Part shown: positions 2 to 59,110 of the stretch, one piece after another
How the letters are laid out: each line of letters begins with the position of its first letter
Numbering within the stretch: the stretch's first letter is position 1
Origin: Eutreptiella sp. 'Long Island Sound 2002'
Taxonomy: Eukaryota > Euglenozoa > Euglenophyceae > Eutreptiales > Eutreptiaceae
NCBI GenBank assembly: GCA_964036045.1
Contig: OZ038381.1
Span: 117,573,790 to 117,637,789, forward strand
Reading direction: 5' to 3'
Length of the DNA stretch: 64,000 nt
Made by a program: the position numbers and the translations under genes
Notes under the pieces: model-generated
Database searches by the model: none
What the model was told of the DNA's origin: nothing
The model's input: only the letters and a program-made list of their open reading frames with translations

Positions 2-1521
2 CGTGGGAGGTTTGGCACAGCAAGGATCAAGCTGAAGCCAAACCCCAAGATTTATCGTCATCGGGAGTACCAACTTCAGGGCGATCGGGCCGAGGCCATG
101 AAGAGGTTGTTGGCCGAGTTTATTGAGCGGGGCTGGATCGAACCCTCCGACAATGAGTGGGCCAGCCCAGCCTTTATCGTGCCCAAGAAGGAAAAGGGTG
201 AGTGCAGGTTGGTGGTTGATTACAGGGGTTCGAACGAGCAAAACCGAGCAGGACTCGTACTCGCTTCCTCGGATCGACACCATTCTTCAAAAACAACAAA
301 AAAGCGGATCTTCACGGTGTTAGACCTGAAACACGGCTATCACCAGATGTCGCTACACCCGGACTCCAGGCCCTGCACAGCGAAGTTCGACGCCGCTGGG
401 CCAATGCAGTGGAAAGTGGTACCTATGGATGCCAAGAATGGCAACGGCATCTTCCAGCGCATGATGGAGGACCTACTCGGTCCAGTCCGGGATTGTGCCG
501 ACCCCTTTGTGGATGACATCGTCATCGGGACCGGCACGGAGGACATGACGGAGGACGAGCTCATCGAAGCGCATGAGAAGGATCTGCACCGAGTGCTCAG
601 CCAGCTGGACAAGCACAACATGGTGTGCAAGCCCACCAAAGCCTCACTGTTGGTGAAGGAAGTGGAGTTCGCGGGTCACGTGGTTGGTCACGGGCAACGC
701 CGTCCCATGTCCGGGAAGCGGGCGTCCCTGCACCACTGGGAGAAGCCCCAGACCATCAGCGAACTCCGGTCCTTCTTGGGGTTCTGCAATTACTATTCGG
801 GCTATGTCCGGATGTATGCAGAACCCTCGGGGCCGCTGCACAAGATGCTGCAGGTGGCGAAGTTCGATCGCCGGAAGGGGAGCAAGAAGAAGCTTGCGTG
901 GACCCCTGAGTCCGGAGATGCGTTCAGCCGCCTGAAGGAGCGACTCCTGGGGCAGCTGGGGCTGTTCCTGGTTGACCCGGACAGGGGATTCGTGCTACGA
1001 ACGGACGCCTCGGACTATGCTGTAGGTGCAGTCCTCGAGCAGGTCCGGGACGACAGATCGCACGTACCCGTGGCGTTTTGGAGCCGGATCCTGGCCGAGG
1101 GCGAACGCCGAACCTGGAATGCAAGGGAGAAGGAGATGTACGCCATTGTTTGTGCGCTCAGGAAGTGGTCTGGCCACATCGGACTACAACCAGTGGTGGT
1201 TTGCAGGGACCATCAGTCCTTACAGAGCTGGCACAAGGAGCACGTCGACAACCCCTCGGGACCGGCGGCAAGGAGGGCCCGGCGGCACGAGACGTTCGCC
1301 AAGTTTGACCTCAGCGTCGTGTATGTCCCGGGGAAGGACAACACTGTGGCAGATTGCCTCAGTCGATGGGCCTACCCCGCGGGCAAGGCATGGATGGACA
1401 TATCCAGCCATGGGGACGCTTAGGAGACCGAGGAGGCCAAGCACATCATCAAGATGGAGAAGGCCATGGAGCAAGAGGGGGTCAAGTGCTTTGTGGTAAG
1501 GGCAAACCGTACAGACCTGGC
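2..1521 (+). pseudogene. Pol of element A: reverse transcriptase and RNase H
   Basis: The frame is open from base 2, so the protein continues beyond the window. RT copies element RNA into DNA and RNase H removes the RNA strand. RT landmarks are the VVDYRG block near 217-234, the LDLKHGYHQM block near 322-351, and the active site FVDD at 506-517 (Phe in place of the usual Tyr of YxDD). A GFCNYYSGYVR thumb block follows. RNase H shows TDASD near 1000 and an AREKEMYAIVCAL block. Between about 235 and 300 the expected SLPRIDTILQKQQK block reads only in the neighbouring frame, which implies two compensating indels. A TAG stop at 1421-1423 interrupts the frame. The same frame continues sensibly to about 1520 and then shifts by one. 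The family assignment is secure; the lack of function is inferred from the breaks. Confidence 0.85.
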
Positions 1522-3147
1522 CAATTCCGGGGCGCCCGAGTCCAAGCTATTCGAGAGGAAACCCTCGAGCAATGGATGGTGGCCCCTGTAGAGCTAATCA
1601 GGTCGGTGCTTACAGAGGACTGGTCGGATGACTATGCGGCATCCGACCACTGGAGCAGGTACTGGAATGCCGTGAGCGCCCCGTCAGACGACGAATGGCC
1701 CGAGGGCTTGACCGAGGATGGGGATAAATTATTCCTCAAGTACAAGCTATTGGTCCCTGAGAACCGAATGGAGGAGCTCATTGACCACTGGCATAAAGCC
1801 CAGCTCATGCATCCTGGTCGGGACAAGATGCAGCAGGACCTGGAGTGGAGATTCAAGGTCCCCCCGGGGTACTACGCAATCCTGGACAAGTATTGCAGCG
1901 ACTACGCCGTGTGTCGGGCCACGAAAAGCCCCAACCACTCCACAGCGGGCAACCCGGTGTATACAGCTATACCAGAGGCCCCTATGCGGTCTGTGGCCAT
2001 GGATGTATTCGCCATGCCAGAGGTCACCGTGGAAGGAGAGACCTACGACTGTGTCATCCTGGCGGTGGATAGGCACAGCGGGTATATCGTGGCGGTCCCT
2101 GGCAAGAAGTCCAAGAAGAAGGACAAGAAGAACAAGCATGGAGTGGGCCTGCAGGCCAAGACCGTCGCGAACGGCACGATCAGGCATTGGCTGACGACTT
2201 TTGGTGTCCCAGGTGTCATCTGCAGCGATCGGGGCAGTCAATTTGTAGGGACGTGGTACAAGACGATGTGCAAGCACATGGGGACTCGGCAGCCCAAGAC
2301 CGTGGCGTATCACAGCCGGTCGAACGGTCGGGCTGAGGTGGCCGGGCAGCAGCTGTTCAAAAAGTTCCGCCAGCTGCACATTGACGAACCGGGCCGGAAT
2401 TGGTACAATTCGCTGTGGAGAGTACTCCAGGCGTACCACGACCTTCCGGGGCCCACTGGTCTGTCGCCCCATCGTATCCTGCTCCTACGGGATCGAGTGT
2501 CACGCACTCTCCCGTGGTTGAACCATGGCAAAGTGGCCCGGGATGCAAGCGCTATGATGGCTGAGGCAGACGACACGGCGGCCAAGGCGTGCAAAGCACT
2601 TCATGACGAGCATGAGAAGAGGGCCAAGTACTTCAAGCAGGGAAAAGTCCAGAAAAATGCTCTCAGAGACACCGTGTGGGTGGAGCGGCACCACAAGAAT
2701 GTCCTGTCCAGGCATTGGCAGGCGACTTGGTATGTGCCGGGGGTAAGCGTTCCGAAAGTCGGGCAGCATGTGTATGCGGTTCGTGTGGGGGATAACAAGA
2801 TCCTGGACCGCGACCATACCCAGCTTCGTCCCCGAGAACCTAACCCCAGCGGACGTCCCGTCACCTTCGAGTTCACAGCCGGAGATCTGGACTCTGATGA
2901 CGAGGGGGAGGACGACGACTTCACCGCCAAGAGGATCCTGACGGACAAGCCAGACCCGGGGACGCCTGGGGGGAGGCTTTAGAAAGTCCGTTGGAAGGGA
3001 TTTGCTGCATCCAGAGAGTCGTGGGAACCTCCGAGCAGTTTCGTGCCGAGGTATACCACTGTCTGGATGGTGTATCTAAGGAGGAAGAACATTTCCTTGG
3101 ATGTCAAGGACGTTTTGGTCCATTTGGTGGCTGCAGCAGCACCGTAA
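1522..3147 (+). pseudogene. Pol of element A: integrase and chromodomain
   Basis: Integrase joins element DNA to the genome, and the chromodomain is thought to steer integration to modified chromatin. An HHCC zinc-binding region is visible: the two His lie in HWHKAQLMHPG and the two Cys in YCSDYAVCRA (about 1780-1920). The catalytic triad is Asp in AMDVFA (near 2000), Asp in CSDRGSQF (near 2225) and Glu in NGRAEVAG (near 2335). An acidic linker follows. A chromodomain reads KVRWKGFAASRESWEPP at 2983-3033 and runs on to a TAA at 3145-3147. A single TAG at 2980-2982 separates integrase and chromodomain in the same frame. The frame is also open back to 1354, but that upstream part does not look coding. 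Confidence 0.85.
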
Positions 3148-3540: not shown

Positions 3541-5980
3541 GAAGCCGGTTCGGACCCCCGTGGCCATTATCGGGTCACTTGGCGTGTGTATGTATGTGCC
3601 GGCAAGCCGCCATTGGCTGATATCATACTTTTTCATCCACCTGACCTAACCTGATGTGATAGTGCGATAGGCTTGGCCATTCCAGCTATGAGCGGCCATA
3701 TCCAATACCCAGGCGCCGCTGGCTGAGTTTTATATATCAAAATTTCAGCAATCGACAGGATTTTTTGATCATAATGTTTCCTTAATTTTTCAGCTATCAG
3801 TTCTGATTGTCAATATATCGGCGACTGTCAGTTGGCCCGCGATTTTGCAGTAACCGATTGGTTAACTGTTATTTTCAGATATTTTAGCGGAAACCCCGAT
3901 GAAGGGTTAACTTTCATCAGAAAAGGGTTCGTTGCTTCCGCAATTTTCATGTTATACACTCGCAAAATTAATCCGATTTTTTCAGACATTCAGAATCGGA
4001 TTTTCGACTTCGAGGTCGCCGGACGGGATATGATGAAATCTGAGTGGTCCTACATTTTTCCCCGATCACGAATCAACCTTTCTTTTGTTGTCGCCTCCAT
4101 TTTTCTTGGAGATATAGTCGAAACAAAGTTGATTCGTGAGGCCACTTTGAAGAATCATATCTCCGGTCCATTGCGAGGTATTCCAATTTTGAGATATGGG
4201 CTGGTGTCGCCTTGGTCTCATCCTAATTGTGGAGGCATCAAACGCCTTTGATGTGTACACATGCCTGGTGGCGCAAGGGATAATGGTAGAGAGGGTAGAA
4301 AGTGTTTTATAACTCTTGGACCATGCAACCGAATATTTTTATGCGACTTTCGAATGTACCGCATGAGTGTTGGTGTTGCATAGAAACATTTTTCCTTAGG
4401 TTCTTACGTATTTTTAACGTGAAGATTTGTCCATGGAGGGGCATGGCATACCATGGTGGGAGCCACTTTCTAAAGGTATGTGTTATATGGATGGTATGTG
4501 CTTCGTTATGCTCACCCCCATGTTATATATCTTCGTTTGTAGGAAGATATGTAGAGTCATACGTGGCAAGGGCCTTGCCCATGTCCCAATGGTGAGCTCC
4601 ATAGCGCTGGACTAAGTCTACCGCACATCTAGTGCATGTGGGAAGGCTTACAGAGCGACCCACAAGCGCCATTATCGATTTTCCCAATTAGATGGTGTGT
4701 ATCGTGAGGAGGTTCGAAGGTGTCCCTATGCGTCCATGTGGGGATTCGAGTGGGGGATTGTTTGCAAATGGTCCCAAGCAATTGTTTTTTGAACCATATG
4801 TTGATACCATGGGTGAGCGAAGTTATATATCACTGTGATTACTTGAGATTTGGCATTATTTACATGTTTTTGACCTCATTTTATGCTCATTTATGTATTT
4901 TATGTGCTCAACTGGTTGGCTAACAGTAAAGTCCCTAGAGATCTGTGAACTATCGTATGTTGCCTATATGTTGGCATATGCTTCGGTGTTGCACCTCACC
5001 ATATGCCGGATCACATGGTCACTTTGGCGTGGCACACGAGGCCTCACAAAATTAGATCTCAAATTGGTGAGTTGACTTGTGAAGCATGGCATGTATATAT
5101 CAGGAGGGGTTTGGGAGCCAATGTTGGGATATTCTTGGGCCTGGACCTTGGTTCATATCACCCTTGTATATTACTCTCCGGTTTGACACATGCATGGAGA
5201 ATTTGAATACTTGCCGTATGCATTTTTGGGTATATAATTGAATTTCGGGCACTATGGTGTGATTTGCCTAATTTTGCTATGTTGTGGTGTCATCTGCATG
5301 AGGCAATTCTCGAAGCCCAATCGACTCCAAGTCCAACCAAAATTATGTCGGGTTAGGGCATGGTCCTGAGTGCCACTCTAGGCCATGATACGCCACCTCC
5401 CCGATTGGGCTAGGATTTAGAAGCTTGGGACTGAACACATTTTTGGGGTTTGTGTAGTGACTTTTGACACATGGCATTTAGCCATCTTATTTGACTCTCT
5501 TCAGGGCATCATGTTGGCGAGTCAAGGGAACGTCCTGAGTCCAGAGAATGAGGAGGCTATGGCTGTGATTGTGTATGTTTCCATCTTTCCCAAATGTTGC
5601 TTGATTTGTGTTCATATGCCAATTTCTGGCTTCTTTTTCCATTATTCTATTGGTGCAATTCTATGTACATGCCCAACGCCCGTGTCTCCGTGTGCACCGT
5701 GAGACGACCGGCGTGTTGAAAGGAGTTGTTGAGTGTCAACGCGGGACATCAAACACCCTTGGAAGCCCTCAGTGTGGATTTGGATTGGAGCTATTGTACT
5801 TGGGAGTTGGTTATTGCAAGGGATCATGATTTGTGTGAAGGAGCCATATTTTACTATTTTTTGTGAAAAATTGTGCAGGATAGGGCAAGATCATGCAGAA
5901 CCTGGTGAGAAGCAAGACCATAGGAGTGACAGGAAATGATGGAAGGAGTACAGCAGGGGCCAGTCCTGGTAGGGACCTTC
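3541..5980 (+). mobile_element. Repeat unit U, copy 1, split by an insert
   Basis: The segments 3541-3831 and 5572-5980 match, in order, the reverse complement of 14413-15034. The outer ends read GAAGCCGGTTC and GGGACCTTC in both copies, giving a short GAAG/CTTC inverted terminus. The shared end contains TGGTAGGGACC, which resembles a primer-binding site after an LTR, so U may be a solo LTR of an element family rather than a DNA transposon. No open frame of note is present. Copy 1 ends exactly where element B coding sequence begins. Confidence 0.6.
3832..5571. other. AT-rich 1.74-kb insert inside unit U copy 1
   Basis: Unit U copy 2 reads straight through from the CGACTGTCAGT block to the GTATGTTT block. 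In copy 1 the same blocks are separated by this AT-rich stretch. No recognisable protein domain, terminal inverted repeat or clear target duplication was seen; open frames are short (at most about 140 codons) and unconvincing. Alternatively, copy 2 could have lost this sequence. Confidence 0.5.
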
Positions 5981-6556
5981 CTGTGTTCCCCCGATTGGGG
6001 AGCCCATGGGGGCAATGAGTACTGGCCAACCCTCCTGGACAGGCTGACTATTACCTCTGTCCAGTTACCTGATGAGGCTATCTATGTGCCTCTGGGCCGC
6101 AAGACACCCATGGGGAAACCTGGATGGGGAAGTATGCTCAGCGTGGTGGACGGTAGTCTGACCTCTATCCCTTGGGAGGAGCTAGACTCAACCCTGGTCC
6201 AGACTATCCAACGCGAGAGCAATGGACTCGCCCTGGGGCACCTGAAGGATCGAATACGACCTCGAGATGCTATTGAGGCTATTCTAGGGGGAGACGAGTA
6301 CGTCCTGACTAACAACAAAGCCCCCAACTCTCCCTGCCATGTATCCATTCCTGATCGAGTCACAGAGTGTGGACTATCCGGGGTACCAAGCTCTATTCAC
6401 TCTGACGACAAAACTGAGCATGACGCCTTCTTCGTGCAGACGTGTGTGGAGGAAATGGAGAACGCCGAGTATGTCGCCACACTGAAACCCCTACTCTCCA
6501 TGAGGAGAGAAGAGCCCTTGGACGAGGAGTGGGACCCCCGATCCAGGCTGAGGTAG
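5981..6556 (+). pseudogene. Pol of element B: C-terminal half of the methyltransferase-like domain and linker
   Basis: The protein begins with FLCSPDWG and continues through NEYWPTLLDRL and IYVPLG to SMLSVVDGSL. This aligns with VMCTPDRG, AYWRRMLDRM, IYVPED and SFLSIVDGSL of element C residues about 234-293. The catalytic NPPF-like motif would lie upstream and is absent because the element is truncated at 5980. The frame ends at TAG 6554-6556. The following 240 bp (6557-6797) read as decayed linker without a sustained frame. Confidence 0.65.
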
Positions 6557-21872: not shown

Positions 21873-22692
21873 TGCTCTACAAATTTGTATGAGTTTTTGA
21901 TTCTATGTGGTGTATGAGGGTGCTCATGTGGTCATGTGCTCTTCAGTACATGAGAGAAATCGAGCCCATCGTGCCACACCTCATCCTGCCCAAGTCGGCA
22001 TCGTGGTTCAATTTAACGTTCATTTTCCTCAATCCGTTCCATTGGTGTGGCTTTGTGCATTTGTCTTTGTGGAAGCGTAGGGAGGCTGTTTGCCATTGGT
22101 GGGAAACTCATTTATGCATGAGGTAGTATATGTTTGGGTTTTTTTTTGGCCTCCAAAATGTGATTTTCTGAGCAAAACACACTTGTGGGATTGAAGCATT
22201 CAATTTGAGACAACCGATTACAATTGAAACAATTGCATGGAGATGAAATGAACAACGATAACCTTAGAATGGTATTCTAGGGCCCACCAAGCCCACATAA
22301 GGTTTTCGCCACTCTCCTTGCTTCGCAGAAAGAACTCATGATCAACATGACGGCGAGAAGAAGACTTCAGCAAGCACAAAGTCCAATGGTTCAAGCGAAA
22401 CAAATCCTCAGCTAACAGAAGACAAAGTTTGGGTCCAGCTCACGTCTGCTAACCAACCTCTTCAACCCAAAACCGAAGCCCGCAGCCAGCGTGCGAAAGC
22501 GCTGTTGAAGCCGAATGCAAACTCAGTGATTCAGGACGATAGATTCAAGGTGGCAACTACGAAAAAACAACAACGCCGCTGCCATCTCCCTGCGCCTGCC
22601 CAAACGAGTGTTGACAACAGAGCCAGTGCTTTTGCTCACTACAATCTGTTCACAGCGCTACGTTCTCGCATGACTGGAGACTGGAGAAAGGG

Positions 22693-23401
22693 AGTAAGAA
22701 AAAACCACTGCCATGTCTTTCTTGGAGGGCTTGATCCAGGCGGAGCCCCCCTTAAAACCCTTTTGCTAATGCTAAGACAAACGTAAGTGTTTTTGTCTCT
22801 CTTTTGTAGCCTAAAGTACACTTTCTCAAAGTAACTAGGGTTGTGACCTCAGCCCCCCATGAAGTTCACCCCTACCACTCAAGTGAGCGGAGGTACCTTC
22901 CTTCATGGAGGATATACCGAAAAAAAACAGGCATTTAATGCTTTAGGCCTTGGAGGTTAAGCCTAATGGTCTCCCACCCCAAGACCCCTATACTCAATTG
23001 TTTCTACCACTTATTGTGGTCCTACTTTGTAACTGTTTCTGAATTCAGTTGCCTGGCCAAGTCATTTTCTGTGTGGTCCTGACATCTATGCCCCACATTC
23101 CTAACCAGCACCATTACACCCAAAAGAGTGCACATAAAGTGCCTAATGCTATCTCTGAGGCAAGAGTCAGACCAATTTTCATATAAAATCTTTTGTATTG
23201 TCCATTTGTGATTGAATCTTTGTGCATAAACCTGCTTTGTCTATCTGCAGCCCTTCTGTGTTACACTGGATTCCAAAACCAATCATTGATTCAATCCACA
23301 TCCTGTCCTTGCTCTACTTGCTGCTTTGGTTGGGGTTTTCAACTACAAAACCTGCAGGAATACATTAGAATATCTAGGGCATAATTCAAGGACATCTTTC
23401 T
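22693..23401 (+). repeat. 5' LTR of element C
   Basis: Begins AGTAAGAAAAA and ends GGACATCTTTCT. The termini AGTAAGA and TCTTTCT are imperfect inverted repeats. Length is equal to that of the 3' LTR. Confidence 0.9.
23182..23188 (+). promoter_or_regulatory. TATA-like box in the 5' LTR
   Basis: TATAAAA about 210 nt before the LTR end, identical in the 3' LTR at 33479-33485. It would place the transcription start near 23210, leaving an R-U5 part of about 190 nt. Confidence 0.45.
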
Positions 23402-23412
23402 GGTAGCAGAGA
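23401..23412 (+). promoter_or_regulatory. Primer-binding site of element C
   Basis: TGGTAGCAGAG is complementary to the 3' end expected of initiator-methionine tRNA. It overlaps the last LTR base. Confidence 0.75.
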
Positions 23413-23482
23413 CAGTCCCTTGTGACCTTTTGAACCGACCCTGAGAAGAAGTGCAGCACAAAAGCTCAACAACAAGTTCATC

Positions 23483-25759
23483 ATGTCCACGCCAAGCGTC
23501 AGGACCTGGCCCATCCGAACTGTCCAAGTGCAAATGGGCAGCATGGCCCACCCAATGAGTGAACCACCTTACCGAGCTCCACATCATCTCAGTGGCGCAT
23601 TTGGGTCCCAAGAAGATCCAGAACGCAGAAGGGCGGAAGAAAATAAAGGCCTTACCACCGAGGCCTTAGCAGCACACGGTGGAGACAGCTTCAGTCACCT
23701 CCACAGACGTGTAGCTGCCTCAATCTCCAGATCAAATTGTCCAGCTTCATCCTCAAATGCCATTGAAGGGCCTGAGGAGTATGAGGAGCTGAAGAAGAAG
23801 ATGGATGAGTACATCCTACACGAGGAGTACTACAATTCCATCTGTGGGGAAGATGGAGAGGAGCCATTGGCTGTACATGGATCCAGACCACGTACAGACC
23901 TAGGGTCCTACGCACACTCTGGTCCTCTGTCCACTGCATCCCTGCCAAGACGACTAAGACCTGAGTATCCAAGACCATGTTGTCCAACCCCAAGGGCTCC
24001 CGAAGTGGGCCCGACTCGAGTCGAAGAACAACATCATCCAAGGCCAACCTACGGGGCCCTGGATCATACGGCCGAGCTGTGGGCCAAACTCCTGTCTGGA
24101 TCAGAAGATCCAGATGTGACAGCCCTATCGGAGGCCATTAGGGCTAAACTGGGTATTGTAGAACCCTTACCCAAGCCAGTTTTGCCCTCTCTCTCTCCAG
24201 GACTGAGTACCCTGGCGGAAGATCTCAAGAGATCAAGGGTCTCAAGGCTGTTGCCTAAGGTCACCTGCCCCAGCACCTTTCACCCCCGTGCCAGGACAGT
24301 GCCTATGGCTGATCTACAGGACGTGCCTGTCACAGAGAGTGAGAGAAGAGGGCTGTCAGCCCTGGCACCTCTTGCCGGCGTGTCGCCTTCAGGCCTAAAT
24401 CCGGGGGGTGGGAAGATGGGCAGACCCATTGCCCAGGCGAACATCCAGCTGGAATTGCCGGAGTTCGACCCCAAAAATCTGCCCGAATGGGCAGAAGAAT
24501 TTGCAGAATTCCTTTTGTTGACTGGCCAATCCCATGTGAATGTGGTCACCAAATGTTCACTGCTAAAACGATCATGCACAAAGAAGTTTTTGCAAAAACA
24601 GGTGAAACAGATTGTGAAAACCTGTTCTACCTGGGCAGAGGTACTCCTGAAGTTGGAGAAACCATTCCCAGTCTATGAGACTGACCTCAGCGTACGCACA
24701 CAGATCGAGGAGCTACCTATGTTCCCTGAGTTTCCATCCGTTGCGCGAATTTCTGAGTATGTGTGTGACTTGGAGTACTTATTTTCGAGGATGAACGTGG
24801 GCTCCTACGGAGCCACTGAGCCCCACATGTGGCTCATGAGTAAGATCCCCCAGCGTACGTGGGATGATTGCCGCTCCACCTCTGAGAGGAGGAGCAGGAC
24901 CCACTCGTACGATGAACTGGTGGATCTCTTGATTGAGCTAGCTCTTGAGAGAGAGAATGACTCCCACATGGAGAAATTCCTCAAGAAGCATTTGGGACGA
25001 GGTGGTACCCCTACCCCCGAACGTGGCGAAGGGAAGGGGCATAAAAATCCCACTAACACCAACCAGGGAGGTGGTAAAGGGAGGGGCAATCTACGTGCCA
25101 TGAACGAGGTTCAACCTGATGCAGGCACCCCCCCCCTGTTCTACTGTAGACCTGTCAATGACGAGGGCGGACCTTGTCATGCCTCTGACTGCGATCTCCG
25201 CAGTGGCTGTATGCTGCAGATGAAACGTCAGCAGCATACCAGAGATGGGAAAACTGTGACCCATCAAGACCATTTCAGGTGTACCATCACCTGTGGTTAC
25301 TGTGGCAAACGTTGTCACTACGAGGACCAATGCCACATCAAGAAACGCGAGAGTGACAAACTCAAGCGTCAGGAGGCGGAAAGCCAGAAGACCCAGACAC
25401 CCGCCAGAAATCCCCCTAATGGGGATAAAGGTGGTAAAGGAGGTGGCAAGGGGGGTGGCAAAACTGGACCCCCTAACCCCCAGAGGCGCTCATCAGCGCC
25501 CGTTGCTACACCCACTCCTGCTGCTACACCCGCTCCTGCCGCAGGTGACCCTAAGAAACGCCCCCAAGGGCATAACGCTACCCCTGAGGGGAATAATTCC
25601 AAGAAGAGGCGCTTGGCCTGGATGGCCAAGTCCCTCATGGCTGCAGGGGTGGATGTGAAATTCCCTGATGAGGAAGGGGGGGGGCGGCTCCGAAGAGGAG
25701 GACTTGGTTTTCTGGATCCTCGTGACAATCGGGGATCAGGTTTTTCGAGCGGTGCTTGA
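23483..25759 (+). CDS. gag: Gag of element C
   Basis: 758 residues, starting at the first ATG, about 80 nt after the primer site. Gag forms the virus-like particle that packages element RNA. The first 300 residues are poorly conserved in appearance. Residues about 320-500 look like the capsid region (LELPEFDPKNLPEWAEEFAE through EYVCDLEYLFSRMN and LVDLLIELALE). A single CX2CX4HX4C zinc knuckle (CGYCGKRCHYEDQC) sits at residues about 604-617. A Gly/Lys-rich and Ala/Pro-rich basic tail that could bind RNA follows. The end overlaps pol by 92 nt, and a run of nine G at 25676-25684 lies in the overlap. Confidence 0.85.
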   Translation: MSTPSVRTWPIRTVQVQMGSMAHPMSEPPYRAPHHLSGAFGSQEDPERRRAEENKGLTTEALAAHGGDSFSHLHRRVAASISRSNCPASSSNAIEGPEEYEELKKKMDEYILHEEYYNSICGEDGEEPLAVHGSRPRTDLGSYAHSGPLSTASLPRRLRPEYPRPCCPTPRAPEVGPTRVEEQHHPRPTYGALDHTAELWAKLLSGSEDPDVTALSEAIRAKLGIVEPLPKPVLPSLSPGLSTLAEDLKRSRVSRLLPKVTCPSTFHPRARTVPMADLQDVPVTESERRGLSALAPLAGVSPSGLNPGGGKMGRPIAQANIQLELPEFDPKNLPEWAEEFAEFLLLTGQSHVNVVTKCSLLKRSCTKKFLQKQVKQIVKTCSTWAEVLLKLEKPFPVYETDLSVRTQIEELPMFPEFPSVARISEYVCDLEYLFSRMNVGSYGATEPHMWLMSKIPQRTWDDCRSTSERRSRTHSYDELVDLLIELALERENDSHMEKFLKKHLGRGGTPTPERGEGKGHKNPTNTNQGGGKGRGNLRAMNEVQPDAGTPPLFYCRPVNDEGGPCHASDCDLRSGCMLQMKRQQHTRDGKTVTHQDHFRCTITCGYCGKRCHYEDQCHIKKRESDKLKRQEAESQKTQTPARNPPNGDKGGKGGGKGGGKTGPPNPQRRSSAPVATPTPAATPAPAAGDPKKRPQGHNATPEGNNSKKRRLAWMAKSLMAAGVDVKFPDEEGGGRLRRGGLGFLDPRDNRGSGFSSGA

Positions 25760-28700
25760 TACCGGTGCAACACTTTCCATAGTGGCCCGGCGCCTGCTTA
25801 AGACTTTCAGGAAAACTAAGACCGTGACCATAAGAGTAGGGGATGGGCGTACCATCCATTCCTTGGGTGGGGTCGATGTGACCATATGTCTGGGCGACGA
25901 AACCGTGACCCAACACTGCAGAGTGTTGGACACTGACGCCTTTGACATCGTCATTGGCACTGACTTTCTACGAAGAAACCCCCAGGTAAAAATGCTGTCC
26001 CTACAGCGTCCCTATTCTTTGCACTGCGACTTTGGCAGTGGGCTATTCTCCGTTTTTTTGGAGCTGTCAGGACGAAAAGAGTCTGGGCTGCGCTACGCAG
26101 CCAAGACGAACTATCGTACTGAAAACTACCAACTGGCCCGTCACTCTCTTGAAAATGGACTGGCGGCCCTTCAGGTAAACCTGGATGAGATCCAGGTGGA
26201 ATTGTTTGCGAGCCAACAACAGCAGATCATGCAGTTGTACTGCTCGAAACAACTGAACAATGCTTTCCGTTTCTTCTGGAAAGCAATGGGCCTAGCGTAT
26301 GCTAGCCCTCCCTTCTCCCTGCTCGCGAAGGTTCTAACAAAAATCGCTTATGAGGGGGGAAGGGTTGTTATGTGCACCCCTGACAGGGGTTGCTCTGGTG
26401 AACATGCTTACTGGCGCCGTATGCTAGATCGAATGACCATGGGAAGAGTGCAACTCCCCGACGGCCCCATCTATGTGCCTGAGGACTCAGACACAGCTAT
26501 GCAGGCCCCTGAGTGGGCCAGTTTCCTGTCCATCGTCGATGGATCTCTCAATCCTGTACCCCTGTGTGACCTAGACCAGGTGCTACTAAAAGATGTCATG
26601 GCCGAAAATCGTGGCCTGACCCTTTATGATCTCAAAAATCGATCTCCTGAGCACCTTTCTGCCACACTTACAGGGTGTGAGTCTTCTGATGACTATCTGG
26701 AACCTGCAGCTGTAAAAGAGGATGCTGACGACCAACTGTCTGAGATCGCCAGCACTATCCCCTCTGTTGATCCCAGCTGTGTTGACCTAAAACATAGTGC
26801 TTTCCTAGCCGAGCTGTTGCTAGAGGAGGTAGATCTAGAGTCAACCTCTGAACCTGCTTCCCCTGTTGGGAAGCCAGTGCTACACATGCAGCCTGTGCAC
26901 ACAGGTGAACCCGTGGCCCGGAGTGCTGATGCTCTGGCGCGGCCTGCTGCCAATAACATGCCATTGTCTGAGCATGACACTCAAGAACTCCGGCGGCTGT
27001 TGTACCTGAAGGCCGAAGGTATTGAGTGCCAAGAGCGGCTGCAATACCTCAGACAGACCTGGAAATACTCCATCTGGTCTGAGGAGGACGATGAGTCCTT
27101 TACGCTGCCTGATCCTGAGATACCTCTAGTGTATTCTCTACACTATGGGCAGCAATGTCCCCCTGAGTGGGACGATGGTACTGTGCCTGCCGAAACTGCT
27201 GATCGGCAGAAAAAGAAAGAACACGGAAAAAGCAACCTCCATGCTGAGGAGGATTTCCTTCAGAAACTCGAGAGTCTTAACCTTGACCCCCGCCTGAAGA
27301 AACTGCTGATAACCTTTGAGGAGGTGTTCGGCGCCTTGCCGCCTCCCCTTTCTTGTAAAAAACTGGTCCAGATGGACCTGAAATTGAAACCAGAATTTGA
27401 AAAGACGCGAGTGAGGCGTCGTCCCTATCCCGCTCCACAGGAACAGGTTGAAGAAATCGAGCGCCAGATCCAAGAATGCATTGATGCTGGCCTCGTTGAA
27501 GAGTATAAACACGGGGACTATCCCCATCACTGCAGTCCCTGTTTCCTTGTTGCTAAACCAGGGTCGACTGCCCTACGTCTTGTTGTAGACTATGGTGAGG
27601 TCAACAAGAAAACCCAGAACCACTCAGGGAGTATTCCTAACATGGTAAACACCCTGGAGCGTATTGCCAAATGCAGGTATAAGATCAAAATGGAGAAACG
27701 CTCTGTTCTCCGGCAGGTTGACCTAACCGCCGCCGCTCAGGAGCTGCTGGCTTTTATAACCCCTAAGGGTCGTGACTTCAAGTGGAAGGTTATGCCTTTC
27801 GGGGTGGCTAATGCCCCAGCGCTCCTCCAGGAGCTTATGAACAAAATTTTGTACATACTGAGGCGCAGGCCTCTAGTACAAGAGTTGATTTCTCGGGGCG
27901 CAGAAATGGATGCTCACATCGACGACGTGAGTTTGGGTACTAATACCAAAGAGGACAACGTCCTTCTCCTCCGTGAATTTTTCATTGTCTGTCAAGAAAA
28001 CCATCTCCGAATCAAACTCGAAAAATGCAAGTTTAGGAAAGAGGAGATGGAGTATTTGGGTTTCGACGTGGGGTATGGCTGGTGGAAACCAGCCGCGTCT
28101 AAGATGCAGCCCCTACAGGACATGCAGATTCGCGATGACCCTAAGAAGGGTCTACACGATGTGAGGAGTTTTGTGGGCGCCTGTAATTTCTATCGGCGTC
28201 ACATCCACAATTTTACTTACTCCTCTGCACCCCTCACTGACCTGATCAAGAAAACAACTCCCTGGAGGTGGACCTCCAGAGAGGAAGAGTGTTTCCAGGA
28301 GTTGAAGAAGAAGATTGCCTCCTCCAACTGCCTGGGAGTGCCCCGCCCTGAGGGCGAGATAGTCCTGATCACTGATGCCAGTGATGTAGGGGGGGGTGGT
28401 ACGATCTACCAATGGCAGGAGCTTAACCCCGCTGAACTAACCCACTGCCATCATCGTACTACTGGACTGAATCGTGATGGTTCGTTGGAACATGACTATC
28501 CTACCAGTGAGTGGCGACTGGTACCACTAGGACACTGGAACTGGAAATGGAACCAAGCGCGTTCCAACTACAGCACCTATGACCAGGAACTCCTGGCCGG
28601 TATGTTGGTGCTATCGTCACAATCCCGACTCCTGGGATCTAACCCTATTGTCTGGCTGTGTGACCAGGAGCCTGTGAAGTCTTTTCAGAAGGGCCCACCA

Positions 28701-30476
28701 CCAGAAAAAGCAAAGCTAAAACGGTGGTGGACTTACCTGAGCCAGTTCAGGCTGACAGTGCATCATATCCCCGGGATTAAGAATGAACTGTCTGACTATA
28801 TATCGCGCAATAACTTCGATGCGCTTATTGGTGAGAGCTCTGAGGCGCTCGCCAAAGAGGCTTTCCAGCGTATGGATGTCCAGCTTGACCTGTCCATGCG
28901 CACTGCTGGAATCCTGGAGGGTTGGAGTCTAACCGACTATCAGTCAGAGTATAAAGAAATTCTCCAAACCCTCAGCACTGGTCTCGAACCCCGTGTCATT
29001 GACGGGCACCAGTGGTATAAAAACAATCAGTACCTCTTCTACCGAATTGTTGTGCCTGAGGCACGACTGGATGGGTGCCTACAGTGGTCCCATTTCAGTT
29101 CTGGTCACACTGGCGCTAATCGCTCAGTGGACTTCTTCCGTGAGTGTTTCTACTCTAGTCTAACCCTGACAGAACTGAGGTCGCGTATGCAGACCATTGT
29201 GGATGCTTGTGGCTGTCATGCCAGCAAGCAGAGCGACAGTAGGGATAGGGGCCTGATCTCCAGCCTACCCTTACCCTATTGTGCTAACTCTCTTCTCTAC
29301 GTGGATTTCATCCACGGCCTACCACGCTTTGGCGGCTATGATAGTTGCCTCGTGGTCACCTGTGGTCTATCTCGCTTCACCCGTGTGTTCCCTTGCAATA
29401 AGAAAATCACAGGTGAGCAGACTGTGAAAATGTTGGTCGAACAATGGTTCGAACCCTATGGAGCACCTGAGCAGGTGCACTCTGATGAAGATGTACGCAT
29501 CCGCAGTGACACTGGGTGGTACAAACAAGTGCTAAATGCCCTCAACGTGGAGGTAACCACAGGTGTGCCCTATACCCACACCTCTAACCCTCTCTGTGAG
29601 AGACAGAACCGTGTGGTGGAGCAAAACTTAAGAATCCTGATGAAACAGGAGCGCACCAAGGACTGGGTACGCCTAGTGCCCTGGGCAGTGCTGTCCATGA
29701 ACTCACAGCGGAGCTCTTCTACGGGTTTCACCCCCCACGAACTGTTCCATGGAGGACGACCTGCTTGGTTCTTCAAAACCCCCTTTCCTCAGGACTTCAA
29801 GAGCCCTGTGGGAGATTGGCTGGAACACAAGCAGTCTCTGGCTAACCAGGCTGGTACTAACCTGAGGCACATTCGTGACCGTGAACAGAGCCGACGGAAC
29901 CGCCTACGGCGACCTGCCAGCTTCAAAGTTGGTGACCTTGTTTTGGTACACCATTCACGCCTACCCTCCTGGCCACGTAACTGCCTACAGGACCCTTACT
30001 TTGGACCCTATCGTATCATCAGGATAGATGGATCCAGGATGAATGTCAGGTGCAGTCCACGTCTAGGTGGTGAACTGCTGTGTGCACCTAAGCAGTTGAG
30101 GCACTATCACTCCCCTGACGACTTGTCTTGGGATGAGTGGCGCCTCAGCGACAGTGGGATTGAACGTATAGACCTAGAGAACGCTGCCAGTCCAGAGGAG
30201 GCAGACGAACTCGAAGAGATGACTGCCGATGAGATGGCAGTCGATGGTTACTACGTGGTTGCAGGTATTGCTCGCCACGAGTATAAACAGGGCTGGAAAT
30301 TCCTTACCCTGTGGGATGGCTATGGGTTGTCTGAGGCGACCTGGGAACCTATGTCAGCCTTCATACAACCAGATGGGAGTATCAACCCCATCTTCCGCAC
30401 TTACCTCGTTGAGAACAACGAGGGGCAGCTCCTAACCCGTGCTGAGACTATGTCCCAGCGTAAGAAGCGAAACTAA
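25668..30476 (+). CDS. pol: Pol of element C: protease, Dam-like domain, RT, RNase H, integrase, chromodomain
   Basis: 1602 residues, uninterrupted. The aspartic protease has DTGA at residues 31-34 and VIGTDFL near 95-101. A methyltransferase-like domain spans about 190-290, with YASPPF (211-216), VVMCTPD (233-239) and AYWRRMLDRM. RT spans about 565-850, with LVVDYGEVNKK and the active site HIDD at about 750-753 instead of YxDD. RNase H shows TDASD near 902-906, YDQELLAGMLVL, and Asp in LSDYISRNNF. Integrase has His in HFSSGHTG, Cys in ACGCH (unusual spacing), and the triad Asp 1213, Asp 1273 and Glu 1311. A GPY/F module (DPYFGPYRII) and a terminal chromodomain (FLTLWDGYGLSEATWEP) follow. The start given is the first ATG of the frame; translation probably enters by frameshift from gag. 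Confidence 0.92.
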   Translation: MRKGGGGSEEEDLVFWILVTIGDQVFRAVLDTGATLSIVARRLLKTFRKTKTVTIRVGDGRTIHSLGGVDVTICLGDETVTQHCRVLDTDAFDIVIGTDFLRRNPQVKMLSLQRPYSLHCDFGSGLFSVFLELSGRKESGLRYAAKTNYRTENYQLARHSLENGLAALQVNLDEIQVELFASQQQQIMQLYCSKQLNNAFRFFWKAMGLAYASPPFSLLAKVLTKIAYEGGRVVMCTPDRGCSGEHAYWRRMLDRMTMGRVQLPDGPIYVPEDSDTAMQAPEWASFLSIVDGSLNPVPLCDLDQVLLKDVMAENRGLTLYDLKNRSPEHLSATLTGCESSDDYLEPAAVKEDADDQLSEIASTIPSVDPSCVDLKHSAFLAELLLEEVDLESTSEPASPVGKPVLHMQPVHTGEPVARSADALARPAANNMPLSEHDTQELRRLLYLKAEGIECQERLQYLRQTWKYSIWSEEDDESFTLPDPEIPLVYSLHYGQQCPPEWDDGTVPAETADRQKKKEHGKSNLHAEEDFLQKLESLNLDPRLKKLLITFEEVFGALPPPLSCKKLVQMDLKLKPEFEKTRVRRRPYPAPQEQVEEIERQIQECIDAGLVEEYKHGDYPHHCSPCFLVAKPGSTALRLVVDYGEVNKKTQNHSGSIPNMVNTLERIAKCRYKIKMEKRSVLRQVDLTAAAQELLAFITPKGRDFKWKVMPFGVANAPALLQELMNKILYILRRRPLVQELISRGAEMDAHIDDVSLGTNTKEDNVLLLREFFIVCQENHLRIKLEKCKFRKEEMEYLGFDVGYGWWKPAASKMQPLQDMQIRDDPKKGLHDVRSFVGACNFYRRHIHNFTYSSAPLTDLIKKTTPWRWTSREEECFQELKKKIASSNCLGVPRPEGEIVLITDASDVGGGGTIYQWQELNPAELTHCHHRTTGLNRDGSLEHDYPTSEWRLVPLGHWNWKWNQARSNYSTYDQELLAGMLVLSSQSRLLGSNPIVWLCDQEPVKSFQKGPPPEKAKLKRWWTYLSQFRLTVHHIPGIKNELSDYISRNNFDALIGESSEALAKEAFQRMDVQLDLSMRTAGILEGWSLTDYQSEYKEILQTLSTGLEPRVIDGHQWYKNNQYLFYRIVVPEARLDGCLQWSHFSSGHTGANRSVDFFRECFYSSLTLTELRSRMQTIVDACGCHASKQSDSRDRGLISSLPLPYCANSLLYVDFIHGLPRFGGYDSCLVVTCGLSRFTRVFPCNKKITGEQTVKMLVEQWFEPYGAPEQVHSDEDVRIRSDTGWYKQVLNALNVEVTTGVPYTHTSNPLCERQNRVVEQNLRILMKQERTKDWVRLVPWAVLSMNSQRSSSTGFTPHELFHGGRPAWFFKTPFPQDFKSPVGDWLEHKQSLANQAGTNLRHIRDREQSRRNRLRRPASFKVGDLVLVHHSRLPSWPRNCLQDPYFGPYRIIRIDGSRMNVRCSPRLGGELLCAPKQLRHYHSPDDLSWDEWRLSDSGIERIDLENAASPEEADELEEMTADEMAVDGYYVVAGIARHEYKQGWKFLTLWDGYGLSEATWEPMSAFIQPDGSINPIFRTYLVENNEGQLLTRAETMSQRKKRN
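25676..25684 (+). promoter_or_regulatory. G9 run in the gag/pol overlap, candidate frameshift or slippage site
   Basis: Gag and pol are in different frames (pol is +1, equivalent to -2, relative to gag). The overlap 25668-25759 contains nine consecutive G, the obvious place for ribosomal or polymerase slippage to join the two frames. No downstream pseudoknot was established. Confidence 0.45.
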
Positions 30477-31249
30477 TCTCCCTGTGTCAGTCTGTGCCCT
30501 GCAGACCCATGCCTATGGTTTCCAGCGTGAGCCAGGTGGCCGCTTATCATGATTGCAGCCACCCAGCGAGTGTGTGCCTTGTTGACCATGCGTTGCATGG
30601 GTACTGCCCTAATGTAATGACCTTGGAGAGCCAACGAAGAACGGTGGCTTACTACACCAGGGGGGAATGACAAGCAAGGTGTTATGAGGCAAGGTGTGTC
30701 TTCCCTCCTTGGGGACAAGGGAGCCCACAGTTAGGACCCCTGACTGGTCCAGACCCATGGGGTTCTACCCTTCCTTACAGGGTTTACCATACCCCTAAGT
30801 GTGCTACGTATGTCTGTATGTGTCTCACTTCTCTCCCCAGCGTGGCTCCCGGAGACCGGGCTTCGCTGACGTCGGACCGAAGGTCCTAATCAGGTACTAT
30901 TACCACTCCTATAGCACCCAATTTCTGTGCTGGCGCCTATCCTTGGGGTAGGACGGCAAAAGCCCTACCTACTAGAGGGGAGGGGTGGCCAAGTGTGCTA
31001 AGGGCATACAAAACTCCCTTTTTCGCTACAGGCCAAAAGCTAACGCACTCCCCTGCCCACGAGGAAAAGCACGGGGGACAGGAGACACCACTACACTACA
31101 CTCACTAACCCCAGCACCGGCCTTCGAAGGCAGGGTGAGCACCCATCACTTGCACTCCACTCCTGCCAGGCCTGCTGACCCTAACCCCTACACACGCTAC
31201 TTGGGGCTGCTGTCGAGGAAGTCTCAGGCCCTGGTGGCCCTCCTGTGAA

Positions 31250-31350
31250 GAGTACAAGAGAACACAGCGCTCCTAAGCAGCTGTGGCCTAACAGGGGACG
31301 CCACATCGCGTTTCCCCTGCTAGGGCTTGGAGGGAAGGGGTGCTCTCGTT
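31250..31350 (+). repeat. Module M, copy in the 3' UTR of element C
   Basis: Order of blocks AACACAGCGC, GTGGCCTAACAGG, GCCAC and CTAGGGCTTGGAGGG, as in element B and in the tandem repeats at 35.5-36.3 kb. Confidence 0.65.
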
Positions 31351-31664
31351 GCGTGCACAGCGCAGATGTCGTTGAAGTCGAATGCCCTCGCCGGTCCTGG
31401 CTGTGGCACAGTCATTTGATTTGTGATCAGCGCCCCTGTTTTGCTGGGGCAGAAGAACGGATAGCCGCCGAAGGCAGCTGCTGCGTGCACCAATCACCCT
31501 TAACCTCTCCCACCTGTACAACAGAGGCAAATGAAGGGGTGTTTGCGGCGGAGGAACCAAGCCACACTCCAGGTATTACACCCTTCTCAGTGTGACCTAT
31601 AATACACCGTCCGCAAACACGCTGACGGATCAGCTCCCCTGTCAAGCAAGCAAGCTTTAAGAGA

Positions 31665-31698
31665 CTCCTCAGGTTCTCTTAAAGAACGTACCGAGGAG
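31665..31698 (+). other. Conserved 3' UTR hairpin, element C copy
   Basis: CTCCTC (31665-31670) pairs with GAGGAG (31693-31698). GGT then pairs with ACC after a one-base bulge, and GTTCT pairs with AGAAC near the loop. Same position and length as 11961-11994. Confidence 0.65.
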
Positions 31699-32687
31699 CC
31701 TCTGGGTAACCTAACAAGGTTTACCGTGCGCAATTCTTGTGGCCTACCCTTTAATGCATCATGTGCTAGCAGGGAAGGGAGGCTGAACCACTGACTCAAC
31801 CAGGAGCCGAGCTCCTCCTGGGCTAACCTACCTTACTCACCATGCATCGTGTGAATGCCGAATTCAAACGAACACAAAACAAGCCTAAGCGTTTTAAGCA
31901 ACCCTACTTTAACGCCACGGCCACACACGAACAAACGCTTTCTTTACTTACCTGTGAAGAAGAAAACAAGGGTGAATTTGGGGTCAGGGAAAGCGTCACA
32001 GCGTGTGGATGCCTCGATTAGGCATATGCATCGCGAGCACAGCGCATATTCTAACCCTACGTGCGCGCTGCGCGCTCCATTCGCATCGCATACCTTTCAT
32101 TCCTGTTTTTACCTGTGCAGAGCACGAGAGAGGAGCACCCGACCCCCCAACGAGCACAGCGTTGACAACCCTAAAGTTTTGACGAAACAACCAACACGAA
32201 CGCAATGCGTGAGTGTGAGGTGACACTGACATACCTGAGAGATGGGTTGTTGACCAGCTCTGTGGTGTGGGCTGAATTTGAATACTTGACTCTGAAGTTT
32301 ATAAACATTTTGATGCAACTGTGCGAAAATTTCCTTTAAAACTTCAAAAACTACGGCTCATACCTTCTTTTACAAAAGCCGTTTACGCTTGCGCAACCCT
32401 TTTCTTGGAGTCTGCTTCCTTTGCGCTTGTCTGCGACTTTGAGTTATGTGTAAAAATGACGATTTCCCGCGTGGTTTCGTCGATTTTTAACGATTTCACT
32501 TGCTAAATCGCAACCCCTTCCGCTAAACCGCAGGAATCAATCCCTGCTGGTTACATTTTCTTTTTTCCCCAGCTCCTGGAGGTTTGTGTCCTCCATTGGG
32601 AGTATTGCTCCGCCCTGGCCCTTGGTCAGGACGTTTACTAAAACGCTGTTTATACAGCGATAGCCGTCCGCATTAGAGCGTTCGACT

Positions 32688-32752
32688 GTACCCTAGTGGG
32701 CAAGCATATTAGCTCTAGGGAGGGAGTCCTGGGTTCAAACCCCACTACCCCC
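32688..32752 (+). other. tRNA-like T-arm/B-box segment
   Basis: CCTAGTGGGC resembles an A box and GGGTTCAAACCCC a B box; the layout is similar to 13568-13645. The acceptor stem is not convincing, so it may be a SINE relic or a polymerase III-like element in the UTR. Confidence 0.3.
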
Positions 32753-32981
32753 AAAACTTTTTCCAAAAGTCTTCGTCGCACGCCGGCGACTTTTGAGGAA
32801 TGCCCCATCGAAGGGACATCATTCACGGTACATTACACTGTTTTTCAAGGGTACCTACAGTGTGATAGGCTTCTATGAAGTGATGAGGATGTTTTTGGTA
32901 AGTTTCATGCAATTTCTGAGGTAATTTTGGGAATATTTGAGCCTTTTTCCTTGGTCCTACTAGCTTAGCTAACTAGTACTC

Positions 32982-32989
32982 CAGGGGGG
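32982..32989 (+). promoter_or_regulatory. Polypurine tract of element C
   Basis: CAGGGGGG immediately before the 3' LTR start; primes plus-strand synthesis in LTR elements. The comparable tract in element B is AAGGGGGG at 13289-13296. Confidence 0.7.
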
Positions 32990-33698
32990 AGTAAGAAAAA
33001 GTCACTGCCATGTCCTTCTTGGAGGGCTTGATCCAGGCCAAGCCCCCCTTAAAACCCTTTTGCTAATGCTAAGACAAACTTAAGTGTTTTTGTCTCTCTT
33101 TTGTAGCCTAAAGTACACTTTCTCAAAGTAACTAGGGTTGTGACCCTAGCCCCCCATGAAGTTCACCCCTACCACTCAACTGAGCGGAGGTACCTTCCTT
33201 CATGGACGATATACCGAAATAAAACAGGCATTTCATGCTTTAGGCCTTGGAGGTTAAGCCTAGTGGTCTCCCACCCCAAGACCCCTATACTCAATTGTTT
33301 CTACCACTTATTGTGGTCCTACTTTGTAACTGTTTCTGAATTCAGTTGCCTGGCCAAGTCATTTTCTGTGTGGTCCTGACATCTATGCCCCACATTCCTA
33401 ACCAGCACCATTACACCCAAAAGAGTGCACATAAAGTGCCTAATGCTATCTCTGAGGCAAGAGTCAGACCAATTTTCATATAAAATCTTTTGTATTGTCC
33501 ATTTGTGATTGAATCTTTGTGCATAAACCTGCTTTGTCTATCTGCAGCCCTTCTGTGTTACACTGGATTCCAAAACCAATCATTGATTCGATCCACATCC
33601 TGTCGTTGCTCTACTTGCTGCTTTGGTTGGGGTTTTCAACTACAAAACCTGCAGGAATACATTAAAATATCTAGGGCATAATTCAAGGACATCTTTCT
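32990..33698 (+). repeat. 3' LTR of element C
   Basis: 709 bp, same ends as the 5' LTR, about 16 differences by eye including GA/CC-type changes near the start. Confidence 0.92.
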
Positions 33699-34486
33699 AA
33701 GAGCCGACACACTACGTGAAACAGGGCTGCAAGATCAAGAATCAAGGCGAACCAAATACGAAAAAAAGCTGGGAAGAAAGAAAGGAGCTCCGTATTGCAT
33801 AACGCGGTCGCCGCAAGTTCCCACAGTGCGACAATACCACGCTGTAAGTCCTGCGTCGCAGGTTTGGAGAATGCGGCAGCCAGCGACAAACGCAACAGCG
33901 CCTGAGCCAACAATTGCACGCGACGAACCACCGCTGCACGCTATGAACAACTGTGGGTCACACGATTCTTTCCCGAGCCTACAGTCTTCATCTGAGTCCA
34001 ACGACGCTTCACACTATGGACAAGGAACGTTGAAAGCCCGCTGCCAACGCTGACGCGCCTCAGAAGCAAAGGTGAACCTGACGATCACCCTACAGTGTGT
34101 TCATGGTACGAGCAAGACCTCAGAATCGACTATGAGTGGCACAACTCATATGGTATGCTTACTGAAGTCGACGCACAGCGTTTGGTGTCTCCTGCACGTA
34201 AGCTAACAGAACAGGAAACAAGGACTATTCCATATGTTGTCAAAGAAACTCAATATTTGATTCAACAAGGGGTTATCAATTGCTGCGAAGGTGAACACAA
34301 CGCTTTTTACTGGTTGGAGACATAATTAAGTGACTTGCCTCATATTTCAGCAAATATTGTCGAATCTGCATTCTCATTTACAGATGCAAATTTTCACTCA
34401 ACCACCAACTCCATTTTTCGGCAAACTGATGTTATCGCCCGTGTATATTGTGTACAAGAACGACTGCTTTTGCCTCAGTTGTCCTC
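33699..34486 (+). mobile_element. DNA-transposon-like remnant, right part
   Basis: Presumed continuation of 15946-22692 across the element C insertion. A 76-codon frame at 34095-34325 reads YEWHNSYGMLTEVDAQRLVS and then ETQYLIQQGVINCCEGEHNA. It looks coding but has no recognised domain. No terminal inverted repeat was identified before the microsatellite at 34487. Confidence 0.35.
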
Positions 34487-58600: not shown

Positions 58601-59110
58601 CGACGCTGATGGTGGGGTGATGCTGGCAATGGTGTGTTTGATGCTGTTTGCTTGGGTGATGTGGGTGCTGTAACCGGTGTTGGTGTGCGTAGGTTTCGTA
58701 GGCGATGGTGCCGGCGGTGATGGTGTTGGTGAGGGTGTTGTGCTGGCTTGATTGTTGGTGGTGTTGCTGTTTCCGATGGTGTGGATGCTGGTGGCGGTGG
58801 TTCTGAGTGCGGGTCGGTGGGGGGCGCGGGTGCGGTCGTTGGTCAGTGTTGGGTGGCTTCGTGTGTTGGTTTGTTTTTAGGGTAGGGTGTCTTAGGTGTT
58901 GTGCTGGGTGCTGGGGTTGGTGGTGTTGCCAACAGTGTCTCCATTGGTTCCGGGTGTTTCCGCTGGTTAGGGTGTTGTGGCGTCCGGCTTGGGTGTTGGT
59001 GGCGGTGCTGCTGTAGGTGTCGTAGTGCCTGGTCCTGGGTTTGGGCGTGGTTGGTTGGGTGTTGCTGGATGTGGCCGCTCGCCACTCCTGGCTGAGGGTT
59101 TGGTGGGTCC
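55680..59110 (-). repeat. Two tandem higher-order repeat units of 1.65 and 1.76 kb
   Basis: TTTGTTCGCC recurs at 55691 and 57345 (1654 bp). GTGCTGGGTGCTGG recurs at 57137 and 58901 (1764 bp); the extra length is explained by a 100-bp duplication in the second unit. Many intermediate blocks match in order. On the minus strand both units encode DTLTVGDTNAANT-like and GITYSAL-like peptides, so an ancestral Thr/Asn-rich repeat protein is possible, but every frame is now broken. Each unit contains CGCCACTCCTGGC-type motifs. Confidence 0.8.
57437..57636. repeat. Local 100-bp tandem duplication
   Basis: TGTTGTAGGTGACGGCACCTT recurs 100 bp apart (57441 and 57541) with near-identical flanks. Confidence 0.8.

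Follow-up and report, generated by a model that had tools for sequence, protein, structure and literature searches.

A Dam-like methyltransferase domain between protease and reverse transcriptase in Ty3/gypsy elements of Eutreptiella

Dam-type methyltransferase domains of retrotransposons are known from the DIRS elements, which lack both a protease and a DDE integrase; there the domain is detectable with the Pfam profile PF05869 and lies in the pol product alongside reverse transcriptase (RT) and RNase H, as PMC3783388 describes it. Methyltransferases of another kind, the cytosine DNMTs, are described from Gypsy elements of a charophyte and from dinoflagellate DIRS and LINE elements (PMC5890265). 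These provide a precedent for DNA methyltransferases on retrotransposons, Gypsy included, but they act on cytosine C5 and, by the same account, are structurally unrelated to Dam. According to one review, DAM domains belong to DIRS, and cytosine DNMTs to both Ty3/gypsy and DIRS; a later sentence there mentions the two kinds of methylase jointly with the two clades, and its meaning is ambiguous (PMC6338049). Related reports describe a brown-algal DNA transposon with an N4-cytosine or N6-adenine methyltransferase (PMC12477816), an orchid Gypsy lineage with an m6A RNA demethylase (PMC9289625), and Dam-like genes of polinton-like viruses, for which a protective function against restriction is proposed (PMC12220804). 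The sequence NPPF is presented as a hallmark of adenosine methyltransferases, and PCIF1 is less active when it is disrupted (PMC6318281).

The window analyzed here, a 64,000-nucleotide stretch of the Eutreptiella genome, contains a Ty3/gypsy element with a Dam-like domain in its Pol protein. The likeness to DIRS lies in the profile, since PF05869 also matches three sister families of the element, and in the company of RT and RNase H. The difference is one of architecture: DIRS has a tyrosine recombinase, whereas the window element has long terminal repeats (LTRs), a protease, an integrase, and the domain placed before RT (a comparison with the published description, PMC3783388). The first-pass annotation had called the domain known in DIRS but not standard in Ty3/gypsy Pol. 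The DIRS half is borne out by that description; for the other half, no description of a Dam or adenine methyltransferase in Ty3/gypsy Pol was recognized in searches of the open-access literature, the broad ones covering the first 15-20 titles.

The carrier element and its domain

The element and its parts are as follows.

22690-33711, plus strand: LTR retrotransposon, whole (LTR pair, gag-like ORF, Pol)
22690..23414, plus strand: 5' LTR, 725 bp (blastn against the 3' LTR)
23483..25759, plus strand: gag-like ORF, 758 aa, in a different frame from Pol and overlapping the Pol start
25668..30476, plus strand: Pol ORF, 1602 aa (open reading frame, Pfam scan)
25722..25976, plus strand: aspartic protease, residues 19-103 (PF13975, E 4e-7, over cut-off)
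26115..26580, plus strand: Dam-like methyltransferase-fold domain, residues ~150-304 (hhalign to phage Dam, model)
26196..26213, plus strand: VELFAS, motif-I-like, aligned with the LDxAAS motif of phage Dam
26304..26315, plus strand: catalytic-type motif SPPF, residues 213-216 (from sequence; NPPF in most relatives)
26361..26384, plus strand: strand RVVMCTPD after the motif, residues 232-239, aligned with the VML-P-A strand of phage Dam
26508..26543, plus strand: C-terminal strand PEWASFLSIVDG (hhalign, model)
27555..28067, plus strand: RT, residues 630-800 (PF00078, E 7e-19)
28269..28748, plus strand: RNase H, residues 868-1027 (PF17919 and PF17917, over cut-off)
29280..29576, plus strand: integrase core, residues 1205-1303 (PF00665, 28.3 bits, below the cut-off of 32.6)
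30267..30356, plus strand: weak chromodomain-like end (PF00385, 13.5 bits against a cut-off of 25.1)
32987..33711, plus strand: 3' LTR, 725 bp (blastn against the 5' LTR)

The order of protease, RT, RNase H, and integrase, together with the LTR pair, places the element in Ty3/gypsy. Its Pol finds Ty3 Gag-Pol as the top PDB sequence match (E 2e-49), and the integrase core matches the PFV integrase chain (E 1e-10, PDB sequence search). It is not a DIRS element: a protease is present, and neither Pol nor the gag ORF has a Phage_integrase match (Pfam, E<=1). The gag-like ORF matches no Pfam family over cut-off. The LTRs are 97.1% identical (21 mismatches, 0 gaps by blastn), and no clear target-site duplication lies beside them (22669-22689 versus 33712-33731).

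The whole-Pol scan finds no Pfam family in residues 104-560 at E<=1, and it is within this interval that the domain lies. All strings quoted in the first-pass annotation (SPPF, VVMCTPD, and YWRRMLDRM, the last at residues 248-256) are present in the 25668-30476 product, between protease and RT. Its placement at 26220-26560 was right but too narrow: the hhalign alignment spans 26190-26564, and the structure model is confident from ~26115.

The family is very numerous, with 29289 first-look candidates in the 2.28-Gb genome (2205 contigs). All 150 that were scored are 95-100% identical to the domain; two carry one stop, and many lie in open frames of ~1600 codons. A frame artefact was rejected on these grounds, the frame of the window copy being open as well. 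The high copy number and the open frames suggest recent activity.

Relationship to Dam methyltransferases

A protein search with residues 140-330 returned five relatives, 71-96% identical, one of which represents 5370 member sequences; a search with a six-piece alignment returned 2301 proteins at E<=1 among 7998 scored, of which the best 120 were listed. The Pfam Dam profile (PF05869) matched 37 of 48 relatives scanned (chosen from 126) at E<=10, the best at 9.7e-5; in the rows inspected, every window-family match lay below cut-off and covered profile positions ~20-82. The window copy itself scores 14.3 bits, and L064, a copy of the same family, 22.5 bits, against a curated cut-off of 28.1. 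Neither the short piece nor the whole Pol gave a Dam match at E<=1. Because its scores fall below the curated cut-off, the family is filed as Dam-like and not as a member of PF05869.

Pfam places the Dam of phage T1 in PF05869 (E 1.7e-70), and 1805 phage records hold relatives of it; T1 and 15 diverse relatives taken from these were aligned as a phage profile of 16 sequences. Against this, the domain profile aligned by hhalign with a probability of 84.5 (P 7e-6) over 118 columns in order, and with a probability of 74.8 when a different selection of 24 rows was used. The score was 40.6, compared with 24.9 for the best of 200 column shuffles and 11.0 for the reversed profile. The aligned columns take in the motif-I-like segment, (N/S)PP(F/Y), the next strand, and the C-terminal strand. 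The window family differs from the phage enzymes in being part of a polyprotein, in having Glu for the Asp of the motif-I-like segment (119 of 125 relatives), and in lacking the GR(L/I)xF near the C-terminus, whose R and F are invariant in all 16 phage sequences.

Other searches added little. In PHROGs, two of the 48 members reach phrog_111 (DNA methyltransferase), with an E of 0.095 at best, and two reach a nameless family; neither match was taken as support. A PDB sequence search with the profile of 48 relatives listed RT chains only in the best 60 of 215 matches, and is uninformative on the domain. A scan of viral contigs with the domain gave 38 pattern matches and no relatives.

A structure prediction agrees with the profiles. 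AlphaFold2, given an alignment that included Dam relatives (51 of 68 rows were phage-type Dams), returned a model with pLDDT 78.2 and pTM 0.77; a run on the relatives alone (A3, 48 rows) reached pLDDT 35 and was set aside. In a fold search the model best matches N6-adenine methyltransferases, with TM-scores near 0.5. The first-pass annotation had looked to a structure model for a Rossmann-like methyltransferase fold; the predicted fold is of this kind, in an alignment where Dam rows dominate. Three PDB matches fall under E 0.001, all of them PCIF1, with 14-16% identity over the structural alignments. PCIF1 (CAPAM) shares the NPPF motif and is the best PDB fold match, but it acts on RNA and has a WW domain. 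The matches listed include no solved PF05869 structure, so the top rank of PCIF1 may only reflect the nearest solved fold.

These comparisons show that the domain, which Ty3/gypsy Pol has incorporated between its protease and its RT, is homologous to the Dam-type N6-adenine methyltransferases. That it has a Dam-like methyltransferase fold is close to certain, and the Dam-type reading of the first-pass annotation is upheld by the phage profile match, far above shuffles, by sister families that pass the Pfam cut-off, and by the fold of the model.

Sister families and inheritance

A Pfam Dam search of the genome yielded 3812 first-look candidates; 150 were scored, and 149 of these reached E<=1, the best at 45.6 bits. 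Eight places from across that list, read at 10 kb, represent the window family and three others. Pfam was run on five of the frames, L064 of the window family among them, and each contains RT. The sister-family frames score against PF05869 (cut-off 28.1) as follows.

L057, family 2: 40.2 bits, over cut-off, with RT
L060, family 2: 34.1 bits, over cut-off, with RT
L059, family 3: 36.4 bits, over cut-off, with RT
L061, family 4: 28.9 bits, over cut-off, with RT

RT was recognized by eye in L058 and L063, and the frame of L062 stops before RT. In the frames read, the domain lies directly ahead of RT. A protease ahead of the domain was found by Pfam for the window family, and one was recognized by eye in family 2 and in element A, the family of another Pol in the window. 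An integrase zinc-finger scores over cut-off in L057, both integrase matches are weak in L061, and L059 and L060 end earlier. P0128, a family-4 protein, has no Pfam Dam match at E<=0.1. A protein search from family 4 gave five ENA proteins (80-95% alike) and did not reach any other clade.

Homology can be followed through these families as a chain: the window family aligns with families 2-4 (probability 96.4, P 1.3e-9, 142 columns), and families 2-4 align with phage Dam (probability 98.6, P 6.4e-16, 124 columns). Between families, identities of the domain and of RT-RNase H fall in step (0.48/0.49, 0.39/0.40, and 0.36/0.40; for the window copy against families 2, 3, and 4, 0.23/0.26, 0.28/0.29, and 0.25/0.30). 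This fits co-inheritance, four families being too few for a tree test. Between subfamilies of the window family, the domain diverges faster than RT (identity 0.69 versus 0.85).

Pieces of two further elements lie in the window.

98..2982, plus strand: element A, where a second Ty3/gypsy Pol ends, with its integrase in 1309-2979 (rve below cut-off)
5930..6556, plus strand: element B, an open piece that keeps the domain's C-terminal half (5978-6154)
5978-6154, plus strand: that half in element B, from FLCSPDW (5978-5998) through PGWGSMLSVVDG (6119-6154)

Element B had been noted as keeping the C-terminal half, and a profile of the retrotransposon domains built without it does find it (E 4e-15). 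The corresponding region of element A lies just upstream, outside the window, and was read in a neighbouring copy, L379 (G000:C4:117565000-117574900). Compared with families 2-4, the sequence that separates protease from RT in this copy scores 44.5, against 21.9 for the best of 200 shuffles. It does not rise above shuffles when compared with the window family (18.9; best shuffle 23.0) or with phage Dam (19.1; best shuffle 21.3), a profile built from the other families did not recover it in hmmsearch, and it has nothing resembling NPPF at the motif position. Judged by its match to families 2-4 in one copy, element A probably represents a fifth carrier family in which the motif has been lost.

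The Dam-like domain thus stands ahead of RT in four Ty3-type families, and probably in a fifth. The domain had been put forward as a family trait; it is indeed kept across the window family, and the trait extends well beyond it. Homology, presence in several families, and constraint (see below) together point to an old, inherited Pol module.

The remainder of the window shows other features. A LINE-type ORF of 1052 aa on the minus strand (46596-49754) has exonuclease-endonuclease-phosphatase and RT matches, both over cut-off. The region 36000-64000 is asymmetric between strands over 28 kb, with an AT skew of ~-0.3 to -0.8 and a GC skew mostly of +0.1 to +0.45. A block of ~1.77 kb is repeated inside 55734-59106, and tandem repeats occupy 60411-61921.

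Motif states, constraint, and possible roles

The motif consensus of N6-adenine/Dam-type methyltransferases is [DNS]PP[FYW]. In the window family, 87 of 125 protein clusters have NPPF, and the individual positions are conserved in 116 (Asn), 115 (first Pro), 112 (second Pro), and 115 (Phe) of them; many of these clusters are decayed copies, so the counts are lower bounds for the living family. The first-pass annotation had proposed a survey of relatives for an intact NPPF; most of this family have it, and the SPPF of the window copy is a minority state, its Ser recurring in one of seven near copies. As to the earlier suggestion that Ser might mean altered or lost activity, Ser is not a family trait, and loss cannot be concluded from it alone, because SPPF still fits the consensus. 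The window copy is a minority variant, and it may be weak or inactive.

The sister families differ from one another at the motif. NPPF occurs in the single family-3 copy aligned and in four of five aligned copies of family 4. For family 2, represented by 30 loci (L027-L056) of which 12 were excluded for stops, length, or search string, all 18 stop-free pieces have NAPF, which on this evidence is a fixed change in a motif that would otherwise be catalytic.

Comparisons between subfamilies reveal constraint. Against L064, the dN/dS of the window copy is 0.089 in the domain, 0.10 in the protease, 0.19 in the linker, and 0.055 in RT; against L063 the values are 0.105, 0.149, 0.20, and 0.052, and with dS at 1.2-2.3, near saturation, the order of regions weighs more than the values. 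At this depth the domain is under constraint (dN/dS ~0.09-0.10). Comparison with seven near copies gives it a dN/dS of 0.17-0.73 from few changes (5-6 replacements, 2-10 silent), the pattern expected of decaying copies.

These results suggest a model in which the domain is an old Pol module that methylates, or in the past methylated, adenine in the NPPF families, with the element's own cDNA as the likeliest substrate; we give this proposal as a whole a probability of roughly 0.5. Catalysis in the NPPF families, taken by itself, is slightly favoured. The domain would be released by the element's protease, or would stay joined to RT; in NPPF families it would methylate adenine at N6 with S-adenosylmethionine as the donor, presumably on cDNA during or just after reverse transcription. 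The resulting self-mark might shield cDNA from nucleases or sensing, or favour expression after insertion, by analogy with the Dam-like methylases thought to guard viral DNA from restriction. In families with NAPF or without the motif, the chemistry has probably been lost and the fold kept for a structural role. An enzyme is supported by the shuffle test, the homology chain, the sister-family Pfam matches, the prevalence of NPPF and its published link to adenosine methyltransferases, the dN/dS values between subfamilies, and the model; the missing GR(L/I)xF, the change from Asp to Glu, NAPF in family 2, the motif-less element A, the faster change relative to RT, and the higher dN/dS against near copies weigh against it.

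Several of the latter observations lend themselves to a non-catalytic job, in which an old methyltransferase fold would bind nucleic acid or act as a spacer, holding RT steady on its template or helping Pol assemble, NPPF being a remnant. Family 2 retains the domain with NAPF in every stop-free copy, element A retains a related stretch without the motif, and the domain sits right before RT in the frames read; upkeep of the domain thus does not always need catalysis. Yet the Asn of NPPF persists in 116 of 125 window-family relatives, mostly separate and partly decayed clusters, and NPPF recurs in families 3 and 4, and this account is the less likely one.

An RNA methyltransferase, placing m6A or cap-next m6Am on element RNA and so aiding translation, packaging, or escape from surveillance, is improbable. 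PCIF1, which supplies every PDB match under E 0.001, is a cap-next adenosine N6-methyltransferase with NPPF, and the m6A RNA demethylase carried by a Gypsy lineage shows that elements of this kind are affected by marks on RNA (PMC9289625, as described there). Against this, the sequence profiles indicate the DNA enzyme family Dam, and the PCIF1 rank is open to the nearest-fold explanation given above.

An unrelated retroviral insert (a dUTPase or other such insert was rejected, having neither Pfam nor fold support) or a chance likeness with a meaningless motif is scarcely credible: the weak 14.3-bit match of the window copy, the blank Pfam results for the short piece and whole Pol, and the family-4 protein P0128 speak for it, but it is already contradicted by a score far beyond 200 shuffles, the homology chain, and sister families over the curated cut-off.

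As for the Dam-like Pol module itself, Dam-type domains are known from DIRS, and several diverged Ty3/gypsy families of one genome also have them, ahead of RT. The module is therefore older, or more widely exchanged, than the DIRS record implies. Its presence there makes it possible to test directly if eukaryotic mobile elements are writers of N6-methyladenine, and its natural variants (NPPF, NAPF, and motif lost) are a built-in comparison between catalytic and structural roles. The most far-reaching version, doubtful when taken whole, would be an old Ty3/gypsy group whose Pol has a functional N6-adenine writer, fixed in place ahead of RT and behind the protease, that marks cDNA or insertions and that sister families turned into a structural partner of RT by loss of the motif. 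If this were true, copies this numerous would carry N6-adenine marks to much of a eukaryotic genome of 2.28 Gb.
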